From contig NZ_CP049244.1 in NCBI RefSeq assembly GCF_011046245.1, positions 558,001-622,000 of the forward strand: a stretch of 64,000 bases of DNA. The letters run 5' to 3'. The stretch comes from Allorhizobium pseudoryzae (GTDB lineage Bacteria; Pseudomonadota; Alphaproteobacteria; Rhizobiales; Rhizobiaceae). A model generated the notes under the pieces. That model had not been told where the DNA came from. It was given only the letters and a program-made list of their open reading frames with translations, and made no database searches. The position numbers and the translations under genes were made by a program. Shown here piece by piece: positions 44,756-51,702 of the stretch; position 1 is the stretch's first letter; each line of letters starts with the position of its first letter.

Positions 44756-45382
44756 TCACACGATCGTTGCCTGGGTGGCGGCGCGCAGTTCGTCCTCGCT
44801 CACGCCATCGGCGAGTTCGACGATCTTCAACCCGCCTTCGACGACATCCAGCACGCCGAGATTGGTGATGATCCTGTGAACCACGGCCTTGCCGGTCAGC
44901 GGCAGGGTGCATTCGTGCAGCACCTTGGATTCACCCGTCTTGCTGGCATGGTCCATGACGACGACGACACGACCGACGCCGGCGACCAGATCCATTGCGC
45001 CGCCCATGCCCTTGACGAGCTTGCCGGGGATCATCCAGTTGGCGAGATCGCCCTTTTCGGAGACCTCCATGGCGCCGAGGATCGCCATGTTGATCTTGCC
45101 GCCGCGGATCATGCCAAACGACATGGCGCTGTCGAAATAGGCGGTGTGCGGCAATTCGGTGATCGTCTGCTTGCCGGCATTGATCAGATCCGGATCCTCC
45201 TCCCCCTCAAAGGGGAAAGGCCCCATGCCCAGCATGCCGTTTTCCGATTGCAGCGTTACATCGACGCCATCGGGAATATAGTTGGCAACGAGCGTCGGTA
45301 TGCCGATGCCGAGATTGACGTACCAGCCGTCCTGCAATTCCTTGGCCGCCCGAGCGGCCATCTGGTTACGATCCCATCCCAT
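44756..45382 (-). CDS. scoB: 3-oxoacid CoA-transferase subunit B
   Basis: This is the beta subunit, 208 aa, of a family I CoA-transferase that moves CoA from succinyl-CoA to acetoacetate (or 3-oxoadipate in the pca type). The catalytic glutamate is in [12 protein letters not shown] (about residue 46). The N-terminal [19 protein letters not shown] is typical. It follows subunit A by 3 nt. Confidence 0.9.
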
Positions 45383-45385
45383 GGC

Positions 45386-46087
45386 TCAAGCCTCCTTCTT
45401 GCGCACGGTGCGCTGCTCGATACGCTTTTCGTGTTCGCCCTGCACCAGACGATGCACGTAGATCCCCGGCAGGTGGATATGATCCGGGTCGAGCGAGCCG
45501 ACGGGCACGATTTCCTCCACTTCGGCCACGCAGACCTTGCCGCAGGTGGCGGCCGGCAGGTTGAAGTTGCGGGCGGTCTTGCGGAAGACGAGATTGCCGG
45601 AGGTGTCGGCCTTCCAGGCTTTCACGATGGCGAGGTCGGCAAACAGGCCCTGTTCCAGAATATAGGTCTGGCCGTTGAAGTCCTTGTGCTCCTTGCCCTC
45701 GGCAATCACCGTGCCAACACCGGTGCGGGTATAAAAGCCCGGAATGCCGGCACCACCGGCGCGCATGCGCTCCGCAAGGGTGCCCTGCGGGTTGAACTCC
45801 AGTTCAAGCTCGCCGGAAAGGTACTGCCGCATGAATTCGGCATTTTCACCCACATAGGACGAGATCATCTTCTTGATCTGCCTTGTCTTCAGAAGAATAC
45901 CGAGGCCGAAATCGTCGACACCGGCATTGTTCGAGGCAATCACCAGGTTCTTCGTTCCAGCATCACGGATTGCTGCAATCAGAAGTTCCGGAATACCACA
46001 AAGACCAAACCCGCCCGCGGCAATCAACATGCCGTCGGAAAGAAGGCCGTCCAGCGCCTCCTTTGCGGTAGGATAGATTTTCTGCAT
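45386..46087 (-). CDS. scoA: 3-oxoacid CoA-transferase subunit A
   Basis: This is the alpha subunit, 233 aa. Motifs are the glycine-rich [16 protein letters not shown] (about residue 23) and [14 protein letters not shown] (about 51) with the downstream [15 protein letters not shown]. No pca genes are nearby, which favours the acetoacetate (Sco) role over 3-oxoadipate. ATG 46087 follows GGGAG at 7-8 nt; a six-codon extension to 46105 is possible. Confidence 0.9.
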
Positions 46088-46119
46088 GCAATGACTCCCA
46101 TCCAAAGGCGGGGAGTATC

Positions 46120-46246: not shown

Positions 46247-49200
46247 TCAGCCGGCGGCCTGATAGGCGGCGGCGATGGCGGCAATCTGGTCAGCATTCAT
46301 CATCAGAAGCTGCTGCGAGGTGATCGCACGCAGCTGCGTTGTGTTGAGGCTGGACAGGTTTGCCGTGGTCAGGCCGGCAATGCCGGCGCTCGACAGGGCA
46401 GAAATGTCGGCCGTGGAGAAGGTCGCCAGATCATTGGCATCCAGGGCCGCCACCTGGGCAGAAGAGAGAGCCGCCACCTGGCTCGGCGTGAAGGCTTCCA
46501 CCTGAGCCAGAGACAACTGGCCGATTGCCGATGTGGTGAGCCCTGTGATCGCGCCGGCGGAGATTGCGCTGATCTGCGCGGTAGAGAGCACCGACACCTT
46601 GTCGGCCCCGACGGCCGCGAGTTGCAGACCGTTGAGCGCGCTCACCTGTTCCGTCGTCAACGCGGCAATCTGGCCGGACGTCAGCGAGCGCGTCTGATAG
46701 AAGGTGAGGCTCGCCACCTGCGCCGGCTTCAGGGCAGCAAGCTGCTCGTGATCCAGCCCCGAGACCTGCTGCGTCGTCAGTCCGGCGATGGCGCCGGGGC
46801 TGATGGCTGCGAGGTCTGCGGTCGAAAGGGTACCGATCGCCGCCGTGCTGAGCGATCCGATTTGCGCCTCGGTGAGGCTCGCAATCTGATCTGTCGAAAA
46901 GGCATCCACCTGCGCGGGAGACAGGTTGGCAACCTGCGAGGTCGTCATGGCCGAAAGCGTGGCTGGTTTCACGGCCGCAATCTGCGTCGATGACAAGGCA
47001 GCGACGGCGGTGGGGTGAAGCGCGGAGATCTGCAGGCTCGACAGAGCAGCAATCTGCCCGGTCGTGAACGACGAGACCTGCGCCGCCGTCAGTCCTTCCA
47101 GCTGCGCCGTGCCAAGACCGGAGACCTGCGCCGAGGAAAGCGCGGCCAGTTGCTCGCCGGTCATCGCCGCGATCTGCAGCGCCGGGATGCCGGCAATCGC
47201 ACCGGCAGAAAGGGCCGCGATGTCTCCCGTTGTGAGCGCGCCCCAGGCATCGGCGCTCAGGGCGCCCAGCTGCGTCGAGGTCAGGGCGGACAGTTGCGCG
47301 GTGGTCAGCGCATCGACCTGTGTCCTGTTGAGGGCGCCGATCTGCGCGGTGGTGAGGCCCACGAGGGCTGCCGTCTTGATCGCGCTCACCTGCTCCAGAG
47401 AGAAGCCTGCAACGCCGCTCACCGAAAGAGCCGCCACCTGTGCACTGGTCAGCGCGCCAATCTGGCCGGAGGAGAGAGCCGAGACCTGTGCCGCCGGCAA
47501 TGCGCCCAGCTGTTCGGTGGTCAAGGAGGCGGTCTGTGCCGTGGTGAGAGCAGCCAGTTGCGACTGGGTGATGGAACCAAAGACGGAGGCCGACATCCCG
47601 GCCAGGGCGGATGGGCTGATCGCCGACAGCGCTTCCGCCGAAAACTGCTGCAGATTGCTGGTCGTCAGCGCCGCGACCTGGGTGGAGGTCAAAGCACCCA
47701 GTTGCGCAGTCGACAAGGTACCGACCTGATCCGCAGTCAAGGCTTTGATCTGCGTCGATGTCAGACCGGCCATCGCCCGGGTGGACAGCGCGCCGATCTG
47801 TTCGTCGGAAAGGGCGGAGAACCCGGACGCAGACAAGGCGCCCGCCTGCGCGGCGGTCAGCGCGGCCACCTGCGCAGTGGACAACTGGCCGATCTGCGAT
47901 GTGGTCAGTGCCGCGATCTGCCCGGTGCTCATTCCGGCAATCTGGGAGGTCGTGAAGCTGTTGATCTTGTCGGGTGACAGTTTTGCGATGGTCTCGTCAG
48001 AGATGCCGGCAATTGCAGCGGGGCTCAGCGATGCCAGCTCGCTGGCCGACAGGCCGTCGAGCGTCGTAAACGACATCGCGCCAAGCTGGCTGGAGGTGAG
48101 TGCGCCGAACTGTGCAGCGGTGAGACTGTTCAACTGATCGACACTCAGCGATGCGATCTGCTGGGTTGTCAGCGCCGCGATTGACCCAGTGCTCAAGGCG
48201 CGGAGCTGCTCGACCGACAGAGCAGCGATACTCTCCTGAGACAGCGCAGCAACCTGGGCCGTCCCCAGACTTTTCACCTGCTCGGCGGTCATGGCCTCGA
48301 CCTGGCTCGAGGACAGTGAAGCGACTTGTGAAGATTGCAGAGACGAGACCTGCGCGGTGGTGAGCGCCTCCATCTGTTCGGCAGTCAGTCCCGCAAGCTC
48401 GCCTGTCGGCATACCGGCAAGCGCCGATGGTGTGATGGCGGCCAGTTCCTCCAGCGTAAAGAGACCGAGGCTTCCCGCCGTCAGGGAGCCGAGTTGCGCA
48501 CTGGTGAACGCGGCAATCTGCGCCTTTCCAAGCGATTCCACCTGTTCGCTGTTCAGACCGCTCAACTGACCGGTCGTCAATCCTGCGGCACCCTTGGCAC
48601 TCAGCGCGGCGATCTGACTGTTGGACAGGGCCGTTACCTGGTCGACGCTCAACACACCCACTTGGGCCGCCGTCAGAGCTGCCACCTGCGCCGTCGACAG
48701 TGCGGTGATCTGCGACATGGTCATCGCCGCAACCTGAGCCGTTTTCAGCGCCGCGATCTGTGCGGCCGTGAGCGCACCCAACTGACTGGGGTCGAGCGAC
48801 GCGAGAGTGCCGGTCGAGAGAGCCGCAAGAGCCGTGGTGCTCAGAGCTGCAATGCTGCTGCTCGACAGCTGTGTCAGCACGTCGGACCCAAGCTGTGCGG
48901 CTTGCCTCGACGTCAGCCCCCCAAGCTGGGCCGTGGTGAACGAGGCAACCGTCGCCGGCGTCAGGGTCGCAAGCTGTGCGGTCGTCAGCCCGGAGATGGC
49001 GGCAGCCGTGACGCCTGCCAACTGATCGGTGGTGAGAAGAGCCACCGCATTGGTGGAAAGGGCCGCGACTTGGGTCGCGGTCAGGGCCCTCAGCTGCTGG
49101 CTCGATAGGACCTCTACCTGAGAGGGCGACAAGGCGGACACCTGGTTTGCCCTCAAAGAGGCGATTTGCGCCGTCGTCAGCGCTGCAACCTGTTGCGTGC

Positions 49201-50905
49201 TCAGCGACGCCAGACGTTCGGCCGACAGCGAAGACAGGGTGCCCGTTGAAAGGGCGGCAATCTCATCCGTCGTGAAGGTCGCAAGGCCTGCCGTTCCGAT
49301 GGCTTCGACCTGTCGTGCACTCATCACCTTGATCTGCGCGCTGCCAAGCGCTTCCACCTGACTTTGGTCGAGAGCCGTCACCTGCGCCGCCGTAAGCGCC
49401 ACGACAGCCTTGGTGTTCAGCGTGGCAATCTGATCCGCCGACAGCGCGCCGATCTTGCCTGCCCCCCAAGCGGCGACCTGACTGCCGCTCAAGACATTGA
49501 CCTGCGCCGTGGTGAGGGCCTGGATCTGCGCGCTCGTCAGCGCTCCGACCTGATCCGCCTTCAGGCCAGGGATCTGCGCCGTCTTCAAACTTGCAATCTG
49601 GCTGGAGGTCAGCGCGCCGATCTGCAGCGTCGTAAGACCGGACAGCGCCGCGGAATTCAGAGACGAAACTTCGCTGGTCGAAAATGTCGCAAGCCCTTCG
49701 GGGCTGAGTGCCGCCAACTGGGTGGCACTGAAGGCACCGACCTGGGTTGCCGTGAAGGCTTCCACCTGATCGGTCGAAAGCGCCGAGAGCTGTACGGCCT
49801 TGAACCCGGCAACAGCCGTGCGCTCCAGGGCCGCAACCTGCGCTGTTCCGAGCGCCGCAACATTGGCTGCCGGAATGGCGCCGATCTGACCCGCGCTGAA
49901 GGCCCGCATCTGCGTTGTGGTGAAGGAACTCAGCTGCGAAGTCGTCAGCGCTCCGATCTGGCGCGTCGAAAGCGCCGCCACCTGCTTGGTCGTCAGGGAA
50001 GCAACCTGCTCGGTGCCCAGGGCGGCGACAGTACTGTTGGTCAGGCCGGTCAGAGCCGCCGTGCTCAGTGACATCACCGTCGATGCAGAAAGCGCCGTGA
50101 CCTTGTCTGCGGTAATCGCAGAGGCCTGACTCGCCGTCATGGCTGCGGCCTGCGAGGCGGAAAGCGCACCCAATTGATCGGAGGTGAGCGCAGCAACCTG
50201 CGCGGTCGTCATGCCGGGAACGGACTTCACATTGATCGCCCGGATCTGATCCGTGGACAACGCGGCGATGCTGGAGGTCGGCAAACCCGCGATTTGAGCG
50301 GATGTCATCGACGTGACCTGACTGGCCGACAAGCCGGCGAGCTGCTCCGGCGAGAGCGCGGCGAGCTGTGTGGGTTTGAGGGCCGCGATCTGCGCCGGCT
50401 TCAGAGCGGCGAGTTGCGAGGAAGACAGCGCGGCAAAGGTGTCGGTCGACAGGCCGGATATGGAGCCGGTGCTGATGGCGGCGATATCCGAGGGGGAGAA
50501 CGTGGCCACGCCTGCAGACGTAATCGCTGCCACCTGTCGCGCGTTCAGGCCAGCGATCTGCCCGGACGTCAGCGCCTCAGCCTGACTGGTGCTGAGCGAG
50601 GCGAGCTGCGCCGTAGTGAGCGCTGCCACCTGGATGGTCGTCAGGCTGGAGATCTTGTCGGCCGAGATCGCGGCAATCTGGTCAAGGGTGAGACCCACGG
50701 TCGCTTGGGCGCTAATGGCCGTCAGCTGCGACGTCGACATGATGCCGACATTGTCGGCCTGGATCGCGGCCACCTGGGTCGCCGACATCTCCTTCAACTG
50801 CGTCGGCTTGAGCGCGGCGATGTCTTCGCTGTTCCACGCCGCAATCACCGTCGGTGAGAGCTGCTTGATCTGCGCGGCGGAAAGCGACCCAATAATCGAC
50901 GTCAT
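46247..50905 (-). CDS. Giant octapeptide-repeat protein, function unknown
   Basis: This 1552-aa protein consists of a 7-residue start (MTSIIGS), 192 consecutive octads of consensus L-[ST]-x-x-Q-[VIL]-x-[AGS], and a 9-residue end (IAAAYQAAG). The register never slips. It has no cysteine, three tryptophans, two tyrosines and two histidines, and I see no signal peptide, membrane span or known enzymatic domain. A 17-octad super-period is superimposed. S/T-x-x-Q resembles a helix N-cap, so an alpha-solenoid is one guess; a beta-solenoid is another. Surface, secreted or scaffold roles are all possible. ATG 50905 has a weak AAGAGAAC upstream; the frame extends to 50962 with residues outside the repeat. 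Downstream of recX on the same strand with a 177-bp gap. Confidence 0.85.
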   Translation of the reverse strand: MTSIIGSLSAAQIKQLSPTVIAAWNSEDIAALKPTQLKEMSATQVAAIQADNVGIMSTSQLTAISAQATVGLTLDQIAAISADKISSLTTIQVAALTTAQLASLSTSQAEALTSGQIAGLNARQVAAITSAGVATFSPSDIAAISTGSISGLSTDTFAALSSSQLAALKPAQIAALKPTQLAALSPEQLAGLSASQVTSMTSAQIAGLPTSSIAALSTDQIRAINVKSVPGMTTAQVAALTSDQLGALSASQAAAMTASQASAITADKVTALSASTVMSLSTAALTGLTNSTVAALGTEQVASLTTKQVAALSTRQIGALTTSQLSSFTTTQMRAFSAGQIGAIPAANVAALGTAQVAALERTAVAGFKAVQLSALSTDQVEAFTATQVGAFSATQLAALSPEGLATFSTSEVSSLNSAALSGLTTLQIGALTSSQIASLKTAQIPGLKADQVGALTSAQIQALTTAQVNVLSGSQVAAWGAGKIGALSADQIATLNTKAVVALTAAQVTALDQSQVEALGSAQIKVMSARQVEAIGTAGLATFTTDEIAALSTGTLSSLSAERLASLSTQQVAALTTAQIASLRANQVSALSPSQVEVLSSQQLRALTATQVAALSTNAVALLTTDQLAGVTAAAISGLTTAQLATLTPATVASFTTAQLGGLTSRQAAQLGSDVLTQLSSSSIAALSTTALAALSTGTLASLDPSQLGALTAAQIAALKTAQVAAMTMSQITALSTAQVAALTAAQVGVLSVDQVTALSNSQIAALSAKGAAGLTTGQLSGLNSEQVESLGKAQIAAFTSAQLGSLTAGSLGLFTLEELAAITPSALAGMPTGELAGLTAEQMEALTTAQVSSLQSSQVASLSSSQVEAMTAEQVKSLGTAQVAALSQESIAALSVEQLRALSTGSIAALTTQQIASLSVDQLNSLTAAQFGALTSSQLGAMSFTTLDGLSASELASLSPAAIAGISDETIAKLSPDKINSFTTSQIAGMSTGQIAALTTSQIGQLSTAQVAALTAAQAGALSASGFSALSDEQIGALSTRAMAGLTSTQIKALTADQVGTLSTAQLGALTSTQVAALTTSNLQQFSAEALSAISPSALAGMSASVFGSITQSQLAALTTAQTASLTTEQLGALPAAQVSALSSGQIGALTSAQVAALSVSGVAGFSLEQVSAIKTAALVGLTTAQIGALNRTQVDALTTAQLSALTSTQLGALSADAWGALTTGDIAALSAGAIAGIPALQIAAMTGEQLAALSSAQVSGLGTAQLEGLTAAQVSSFTTGQIAALSSLQISALHPTAVAALSSTQIAAVKPATLSAMTTSQVANLSPAQVDAFSTDQIASLTEAQIGSLSTAAIGTLSTADLAAISPGAIAGLTTQQVSGLDHEQLAALKPAQVASLTFYQTRSLTSGQIAALTTEQVSALNGLQLAAVGADKVSVLSTAQISAISAGAITGLTTSAIGQLSLAQVEAFTPSQVAALSSAQVAALDANDLATFSTADISALSSAGIAGLTTANLSSLNTTQLRAITSQQLLMMNADQIAAIAAAYQAAG
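46277..50884 (-). repeat. 192 x 24-bp coding repeat with 17-unit (408-bp) super-period
   Basis: Codons for octads 1-192 run from 50884 down to 46277 without an insertion or deletion. The units are conserved in protein pattern but diverged in DNA, so this is not a fresh tandem array. Octads numbered 17n, 17n+1 and 17n-1 lack the position-5 glutamine in all copies, defining a higher unit of 17 octads (136 aa, 408 bp) present about 11 times. Confidence 0.9.
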
Positions 50906-51082
50906 GAAGATGTTCTCTTGCCTAGCCTGTTCAGCCGCACGGCGCCGCCGACTGAACACCATGAAAAAACGACGAGCACAGAATCTGCCCGATCACAGAC
51001 TAGAAGTTGCTGCTGGTGTGAAGCTGACCTTGGAACAAGCATCGGCGCCAAACGCCTTGCAATGCGGAGCGCACTGCGATGC

Positions 51083-51634
51083 TCAGGGCATTGCGAGCAG
51101 TTCTTCTGCCTCGTCACGATCCATGCGGACAATGCGGGCGCCGATCTCGAAGGAAAAACCCTGTCGGGCGAAGGCGGAAAGCTCTTTCGCCTTCTGTCTT
51201 TCGTCCATGTCTACCCGACGAAACGGGCCGAAGGCACGCCGGCGCGCATAGATGATCGCGGACTTCAGGTCATCGGTCTCCTGAACCGCCGCCTGCACGA
51301 TCTCACGATCCACACCCTTCTGGACCAGCGTCTGGGCAATCGCTTTGCGGGATTTGCCGGCGCGGACGGACGACCGGGTGCGGATTTCCGCATAGGCGGC
51401 GTCATCCAACGCGCTGACGGAATGGCCGAAGGCGACAGCGGCCTCCGCCAACGCCTTCACCTGCTCATCGGTAATCCCTTCGAATTTCTGCCGCGCCTTG
51501 CGGCCGACGGCCTCTGCCAACTGGCGCTCGGTCATCATGCGCCGGGACAGCCGGTAGGCGGCAGAGTTCTTGGCCCAGGCGAGCATGCGCGGGGTCGGCG
51601 CCTCGGGGGCGGAGGGAGTGTCGTCATCAACCAT
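51083..51634 (-). CDS. recX: Regulatory protein RecX
   Basis: This is a 183-aa all-helical RecA modulator. Family features are LSRRMMTERQLAEAVGRKA (about 29-48), the middle AYAEIRTRSSVRAGKSRKAIAQTL block with the ROD/KSR-type residues, and DRDEAEELL at the end. recA is not in the window. Stop of the TRAP binding-protein gene is 68 nt upstream, so it may be read through from the thiamine operon or have its own promoter. ATG 51634 and GTG 51637 are adjacent. Confidence 0.88.
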   Translation of the reverse strand: MVDDDTPSAPEAPTPRMLAWAKNSAAYRLSRRMMTERQLAEAVGRKARQKFEGITDEQVKALAEAAVAFGHSVSALDDAAYAEIRTRSSVRAGKSRKAIAQTLVQKGVDREIVQAAVQETDDLKSAIIYARRRAFGPFRRVDMDERQKAKELSAFARQGFSFEIGARIVRMDRDEAEELLAMP

Positions 51635-51702
51635 CACCGCTTCGCTTTAAGCCGAAACGGGCCGGCGTACCAGAGACCGGATCGGAGGGCGCCCCGGCCC
51701 CG

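Follow-up and report, generated by a model that had tools for sequence, protein, structure and literature searches.

An octad-repeat ALTTAQ protein of Allorhizobium pseudoryzae and the glycosyltransferase and secretion genes linked to its relatives

In the HMW1-HMW1C system and in that of the serine-rich-repeat adhesins, a giant secreted adhesin is associated with a dedicated cytoplasmic glycosyltransferase, HMW1C being a member of family GT41. HMW1 is exported by two-partner secretion and carries its glycans on Asn; the serine-rich-repeat proteins use the accessory Sec system. The LapA-like adhesins are giant, repetitive proteins exported by type I secretion systems (T1SS). To our knowledge, neither HMW1 nor the serine-rich-repeat adhesins form an alpha-solenoid of octads. 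Among enzymes that modify other exported proteins, FlmG (PMC7591256) combines a TPR part and a GT-B enzyme. It acts in the cytoplasm, where it glycosylates flagellins, to which its TPR part binds.

The gene described here is located at 46247..50905 (minus strand) of a 64,000-nucleotide stretch of the A. pseudoryzae genome (contig NZ_CP049244.1, positions 558,001 to 622,000; hereafter the window). It encodes a 1552-aa octad-repeat protein belonging to Pfam family PF20080 (ALTTAQ). This work establishes its sequence anatomy, family membership and superperiod, as well as the gene linkage displayed by its relatives (loci are numbered L and genomes G). The linkage evidence suggests, without proving it, that these proteins are sugar-coated surface rods.

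The octad array and its family

The reading frame at 46247-50905 (minus strand), supported by translation, Pfam and a dN/dS comparison with an orthologue, gives 1552 aa with zero internal stops. The program-called ORF begins at 50962; relatives favour the start at 50905 that had been adopted in a preliminary description of this DNA, and a start of the type M-x-S-[IL] or similar is common among many of them. The protein can be parsed as 7 + 192x8 + 9 residues, i.e. an N-terminal leader, MTSIIGS (50885..50905, minus strand, from the translation and the relatives), 192 octads encoded by tandem 24-bp units (46277..50884, minus strand) and a final IAAAYQAAG, in a single phase and with zero indels. 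The array of 192 units without any slip announced in the preliminary description is therefore confirmed; translation and lag analysis divide it into ~11.3 blocks of 17 octads. On inspection by eye, the protein shows no signal peptide. The residues MTSI are shared by the start of the flagellin encoded next to the paralogue described below, a stretch too short for an export signal to be claimed.

Position 1 of the octad is L, I, F, M, V or W in 192/192 units, position 2 is S or T in 148, position 5 is Q in 124, position 6 is V, I or L in 175 and position 8 is A, G or S in 166. The strict motif initially proposed, L-[ST]-x-x-Q-[VIL]-x-[AGS], fits just 57 of the 192 octads in the true phase and 0 of 193-194 units in each of the seven other phases. 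Therefore, the register is not due to chance. The 1552 residues include no Cys, as previously noticed, 2 His, 2 Tyr, 3 Trp and 24 Phe. The DNA has indeed diverged: Tandem Repeats Finder detects three short 24-bp arrays, repeats at the DNA level being almost gone, and in 55 pairwise comparisons of the 17-octad blocks, 64% of synonymous sites differ on average.

The comparison with a 1550-aa orthologue encoded by another genome of the genus (G006; 48.5% identity, 2 gap columns) yields a dN of ~0.48 and a dS of ~1.7, the latter near saturation, and this dN/dS points to purifying selection. The strong selection on the eight-residue period put forward earlier is supported by the comparison with this orthologue and by the superperiod. 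However, 37 of the 94 relatives that reach 640 aa or more (the window protein counted) change frame, the 57 that stay in one frame including the window protein, so that a strict register was rejected as a family rule. The neighbouring genes, a RecX-like ORF upstream (51083..51637, minus strand) and two ORFs downstream (44756..46105, minus strand) that we take to resemble 3-oxoacid CoA-transferase subunits, show no sign of belonging to the system.

The window protein matches PF20080 (ALTTAQ_rpt) with 742.6 bits (cut-off 26.4) over 61 stretches. The profile search thus gives a name to a repeat family first presented as unrecognised, for which no characterising paper was found: the open PMC literature returned no paper containing 'ALTTAQ' or 'HeliScrew' or dealing with the function of the family and, judging from titles and abstracts, nothing on it under OGT and type I secretion, octapeptide solenoid or 'heme utilization protein'. 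Among PDB sequences, the sole strong match is chain 9zem_A ("HeliScrew4"), whose octads align to the window protein over 112 of 120 residues (E 1.6e-17), the next ones being LRR proteins, from 2e-4. From the name HeliScrew4, we infer that 9zem is a designed, screw-shaped protein.

The window protein has further Pfam matches, to CAAP1 and LRR_EndoS above their cut-offs and to DUF4351 below its own; each is confined to a single short stretch and is likely a cross-match to the repeat. A leucine-rich repeat was rejected, as neither AlphaFold2 model contains strands and the LRR_EndoS match, over its cut-off, is limited to its short stretch. The Pfam search found no RTX GD-rich nonapeptide repeat (PF00353) in the window protein. 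Phage origin and anti-phage defence were also rejected, with no match among 50,697 phage records and no PADLOC match for the window protein, its paralogue or the OGT.

Predicted fold and superperiod

An AlphaFold2 model of residues 1-303 built with 28 sequences (mean pLDDT 95.5, pTM 0.84) assigns 37 short helices to its 37 octads, without any strand, and a model of the last 300 residues built with 15 sequences (pLDDT 95.7, pTM 0.86) is also devoid of strands. Each octad is thus predicted to consist of one short helix and a turn, and the predictions for both ends back the solenoid that had been suggested from the sequence. The C-terminal model ends in a capping helix of 14 residues (46253..46294, minus strand, predicted from the alignment and the model), whose Tyr is invariant in 15/15 aligned rhizobial-type relatives. 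Helix N-caps, capping boxes and hydrophobic staples are well-known features of proteins, and the model would fit an N-cap by the S/T of position 2, a capping box involving the Gln of position 5 and a hydrophobic staple between positions 1 and 6 (L1/V6); the octad would then be a short helix followed by a tight turn in an alpha-solenoid. Among the matches listed by Foldseek against the PDB (best 50), only mesothelin appears, weakly, and 9zem is not found; the likeness to mesothelin was rejected (TM 0.20-0.41, local only).

The window protein also displays, along the whole array, a superperiod of 136 residues (17 octads) that is absent from the preliminary description (lag 17, z = 9.3 against 2000 unit shuffles). 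Similarity at lags 34, 51, 68 and 85 almost equals that at lag 17, and in 7 of the 9 proteins of the genus, similarity is highest at 136 residues or at a multiple of this lag. The 17-octad blocks of the paralogue (L009:3451-10554) are nearly homogenised, with 79% identity at lag 136 and a pN between neighbours down to 0.01, versus 40% identity in the window copy.

Among 94 proteins with at least 80 octads, the top lag is 17 in 54 and 1 in 16. Their median autocorrelation peaks at 3/4, 7, 10, 13/14, 17, 24, 27, 34, 44 and 51 octads, and its Fourier peak lies at 0.2945 per octad, i.e. 3.40 octads, ~2x the next peak. The largest spectral peak falls at 0.285-0.305 in 50 of 60 non-redundant in-register proteins, and all 60 have this band within the top 25 of 481 grid points. 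The window protein is one of the ten exceptions, its largest peak being at 0.117, near 2/17. This set includes six proteins of the genus: the paralogue (L009) is alone in peaking near 0.294, whereas the window protein and three others do so at ~2/17, and the last one at ~7/17.

The main peak at ~3.4 octads in 50 of 60 relatives suggests that ALTTAQ proteins form a superhelix of ~3.4 octads per turn, 17 octads corresponding to five turns, with a twist per octad deduced from this period. The octads would wind into a long screw with, probably, ~3.4 of them per superhelical turn, and similarity would therefore recur at 7, 10, 17, 24, 27 and 34 octads. It is unlikely that the 17-octad period is instead the mere trace of a tandem duplication of 136-residue blocks and reflects no superhelical register. 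Such duplications would agree with the close resemblance of neighbouring blocks in the paralogue (the pN minimum of 0.01) and with the largest peak of the window protein itself, near 2/17; however, the similarity in the window protein hardly decays from lag 17 to lag 85, and other proteins use lags 7, 10, 24, 27 or 34, each of which lies close to a multiple of 3.4.

Glycosyltransferase, exporter and flagellar genes around ALTTAQ genes

The ALTTAQ matches in the genome containing the window (G000; 150 of 190 candidates scored) correspond to two ORFs, the window gene and a gene encoding a 2367-aa paralogue. This genome carries only two genes of GT41 O-glycosyltransferases (OGTs), which both flank the paralogue (L009), and no GT41 gene lies near the window gene. 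A flagellin gene is located upstream of the paralogue, and the flagellin gene and the second, flagellin-type GT41 gene beside it were placed at L009:11506-12447 and L009:12760-14685. According to a strict protein search, 5 of 12 genomes of the genus, this one included, encode ALTTAQ proteins. Each of these five carries, beside an ALTTAQ copy, a GT41 gene with 58-64% identity to that of the window's genome. This OGT type is absent from the seven other genomes, which have only the flagellin-side GT41 type (five genomes) or no GT41 at 1e-20 (two genomes).

The linkage was examined in 75 loci (69 named loci from a scan of the genome collection and seven stretches from the genus, minus L091, in which no ALTTAQ ORF was called), which do not all represent independent events since some share a genome. 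A GT41 OGT gene lies within 2.5 kb in 26 of the 75 loci, being downstream, on the same strand and within 300 bp in 22 of them; where the downstream flank reaches 2 kb or more (46 loci), the gene is found in 23. An OGT gene just past the end of three other loci (L033, L037 and L040) brings the total to 29/75. The 46 remaining loci, many of them cut by contig ends, have no OGT gene nearby.

In a 67-row GT41 tree, which like a smaller 50-row tree comes from a quick search with long-branch warnings, the ALTTAQ-adjacent OGTs, except that of L056, fall in two supported groups, one rhizobial-azospirillal (16 rows, SH-aLRT 100) and one mainly beta- and gammaproteobacterial (35 rows, SH-aLRT 99). Both stand apart from the flagellin-side GT41 type of the genus. 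A single clade for these OGTs was rejected: the 50-row tree united nearly all of them (SH-aLRT 94) but the 67-row tree does not.

A GT41 gene is present in each of the 24 ALTTAQ genomes selected for this count, the background being drawn from alphaproteobacteria only. Among 241 evenly drawn alphaproteobacterial genomes, that of the window included, ALTTAQ (1e-8) was found in 6 and GT41 (1e-20) in 71, i.e. in 5 of the 6 ALTTAQ genomes versus 66 of the 235 others; this class-wide co-occurrence is weak evidence by itself. The ALTTAQ genome devoid of GT41 at 1e-20 (G164) combines cadherin-like domains and a short run of octads in one ORF (L122:7559-10987), where the octads lie next to Cadherin_4 domains.

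Enrichment in Ser/Thr was rejected as a sign of glycosylation, the comparison of 29 OGT-linked proteins with 71 from other loci giving p = 0.12, 0.39 and 0.56; furthermore, the S/T of position 2 doubles as a helix N-cap, as in HeliScrew4, which counts against such a use. Within the genus, OGT-linked copies are mostly richer in S/T at position 3 than unlinked ones, a trend that the wide set does not follow. Sugar-nucleotide genes are found in L057, L092, L120 and L121. They include, near OGT or ALTTAQ genes, NAD-dependent epimerase/dehydratase genes at L120:1066-2004 (G214) and L121:14873-15499 (G189), whose products possibly make the donor sugar, and NeuB and cytidylyltransferase genes near the OGT gene of L057.

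Exporter genes occur in the flanks of one of the 75 primary loci (L056, ABC gene only), the other direct cases coming from extra records. Exporter genes share one locus with ALTTAQ and OGT genes in L056, L118, L124, L125, which is on a Cereibacter plasmid, and L126, a Pseudomonas asturiensis plasmid with three ALTTAQ ORFs, OGT, TolC, HlyD and a PrtD-type ABC gene. L118 and L124 carry tandem OGT genes, one from each group, beside HlyD, a C39-type ABC gene and ALTTAQ; only in these two loci, both with two OGT types, is the rhizobial-type OGT group joined to T1SS genes. Two of the four plasmid stretches examined (L127 and L128) have neither OGT nor exporter genes.

Of 15 GT41 loci fetched from ALTTAQ genomes in which the OGT gene lies away from ALTTAQ, 13 are OGT-ABC-HlyD loci, 11 of them with a TolC-like gene. 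L119 is a fourteenth OGT-ABC-HlyD case, its ABC protein passing the LssB cut-off and its HlyD protein the type I cut-off. The two remaining fetched loci are L136 (a further OGT gene of G028, beside three flagellin genes) and L142 (G075). In the 67-row tree, the OGTs of these 14 operons cluster as a single clade within the second group and therefore do not represent 14 independent events. The genome containing the window has no match to PF03412 (Peptidase_C39) and no PrtD-type exporter over cut-off (TIGR01842, best score 253.8 versus 510.15), whereas four other ALTTAQ genomes of the genus (G003, G004, G006 and G007) exceed the TIGR01842 cut-off.

Flagellar genes lie in the flanks of 6 of the 75 loci (L009, L022, L025, L054, L083 and L085; gene families were confirmed for examples, L022 and L025 being alike), and ALTTAQ genes of Rhizobiaceae are found beside fliC, flgE or flgD-L-K. 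In Shinella fusca (L085:3963-17809), three flagellin genes, two ALTTAQ ORFs, an OGT gene and a fourth flagellin gene follow each other in a row. Elsewhere (L137:13868-16999, G034), flagellin and FliD-like genes lie a few kb from an OGT-ABC-HlyD-TolC operon.

The tail that follows the last octad has 9 residues in the window protein and 29-275 in most Burkholderiales copies; rhizobial copies mostly stop within ~11 residues of the last octad. The proteins of L118, L124 and L125 have exporter genes alongside, yet 3-residue tails. Five Burkholderiales C-termini (L036, L053, L073, L086 and L097) share a DVWF motif followed by a PLI or VLI end, and many Duganella-type copies end with W-F-x-x-P-x-R. 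The C-termini of the Pseudomonas ALTTAQ proteins L050 and L126 presumably resemble the ends of giant RTX-type adhesins.

A candidate glycosylated rod and the known systems

From these linkages, we infer the glycosylation, export and function of ALTTAQ proteins. The reading that we favour, at about even chances, is that they are giant octad-screw rods glycosylated by GT41 enzymes in the cytoplasm and then exported to the cell surface or outside. Cytoplasmic GT41 OGTs would glycosylate the Ser/Thr-rich surface of family members, and type I secretion would export these proteins in Burkholderiales, a Cereibacter, a Pseudomonas and some other alphaproteobacteria. Once exported, they could function on the cell surface or outside the cell as glycosylated rods of great length. 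In this scheme, the window gene would be an additional copy, unlinked to the first, whose product would depend in trans on the OGT encoded beside the 2367-aa paralogue; as it has no adjacent OGT or exporter gene and its genome lacks the two exporter kinds tested, its own glycosylation and export are deduced via the paralogue only. The surface fibre or secreted adhesin envisaged in the preliminary description is supported indirectly by the relative that has cadherin-like domains and by the type I secretion genes located close to certain relatives or to the OGTs of these. For the window copy, such a role would be putative, its genome having neither a Peptidase_C39 match nor a PrtD-type exporter over cut-off.

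It is somewhat unlikely that ALTTAQ proteins are never exported and serve as cytoplasmic scaffolds or binding platforms, comparable to TPR or HEAT solenoids, whose clients or regulators would be the OGT and flagellar genes. The lack of a signal peptide visible by eye, the rhizobial copies that mostly end in a capped helix without tail, the window genome without the exporter kinds tested (Peptidase_C39, PrtD) and the cytoplasmic location given for the comparable OGT FlmG in PMC7591256 would all suit such a role. They have to be weighed against the OGT and T1SS operons of 14 genomes and the ALTTAQ-OGT-exporter loci of other lineages, the long non-octad C-terminal tails of most Burkholderiales copies and the cadherin-like domains beside the octads in L122.

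A variant of the glycosylated rod, in which the octad screw would plug into differing exporters, mostly type I secretion and, in Rhizobiaceae, flagellar export, through or along the flagellum, is improbable; it is proposed because of the adjacency to fliC, flgE or flgD-L-K, the own OGT group of these bacteria and the lack in the window genome of the T1SS kinds tested. Still less probable is that the OGTs and exporters serve other substrates, such as flagellins or RTX adhesins, ALTTAQ genes being mere neighbours. Flagellin-side GT41 genes of a separate type, some of them beside fliC, an RTX protein near L021, the window copy unlinked to any OGT gene and the Burkholderiales exporter operons away from ALTTAQ genes would be expected in that case. 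However, two OGT groups adjoin ALTTAQ genes across alpha-, beta- and gammaproteobacteria, including cases in which no flagellin turned up, and the OGT type of the genus is missing from the 7 genomes without ALTTAQ. Haem binding, suggested only by the annotation 'heme utilization protein' in the records of L125 and L126, is scarcely credible for a protein with no haem family in the Pfam search and no Cys, 2 His and 2 Tyr in 1552 residues.

If the glycosylated rod proves true, proteobacteria would own a class of giant secreted glycoproteins with dedicated GT41 enzymes and exporters, and a function would be given both to a Pfam family for which no paper was found in open PMC and to a group of bacterial OGTs. 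The octad, with its eight residues, may be among the shortest natural helical repeats. Such proteins would furthermore supply protein design with a modular rod, and O-glycosylation could be counted site by site along their regular array.

The description of PF20080 ALTTAQ_rpt concerns the same repeat as that of the window protein, its name being silent on structure, superperiod and OGT or exporter linkage. HeliScrew4 (9zem) has the same octads but differs by its length of 120 residues and by being proline-rich at position 3. The likeness to LapA-like T1SS adhesins lies in the LssB-class exporter of L119, in a giant repetitive substrate and, presumably, in the C-termini of L050 and L126; unlike them, the window protein has no RTX or Ig-like domains according to Pfam, and GT41 genes are linked in its relatives. 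As in the present proposal, the FlmG-flagellin pair of Caulobacter associates, according to PMC7591256, a cytoplasmic TPR and GT-B enzyme with a dedicated exported substrate. It differs in that this substrate is flagellin; in the genus of the window, the OGT on the ALTTAQ side and the GT41 on the flagellin side belong to different types.
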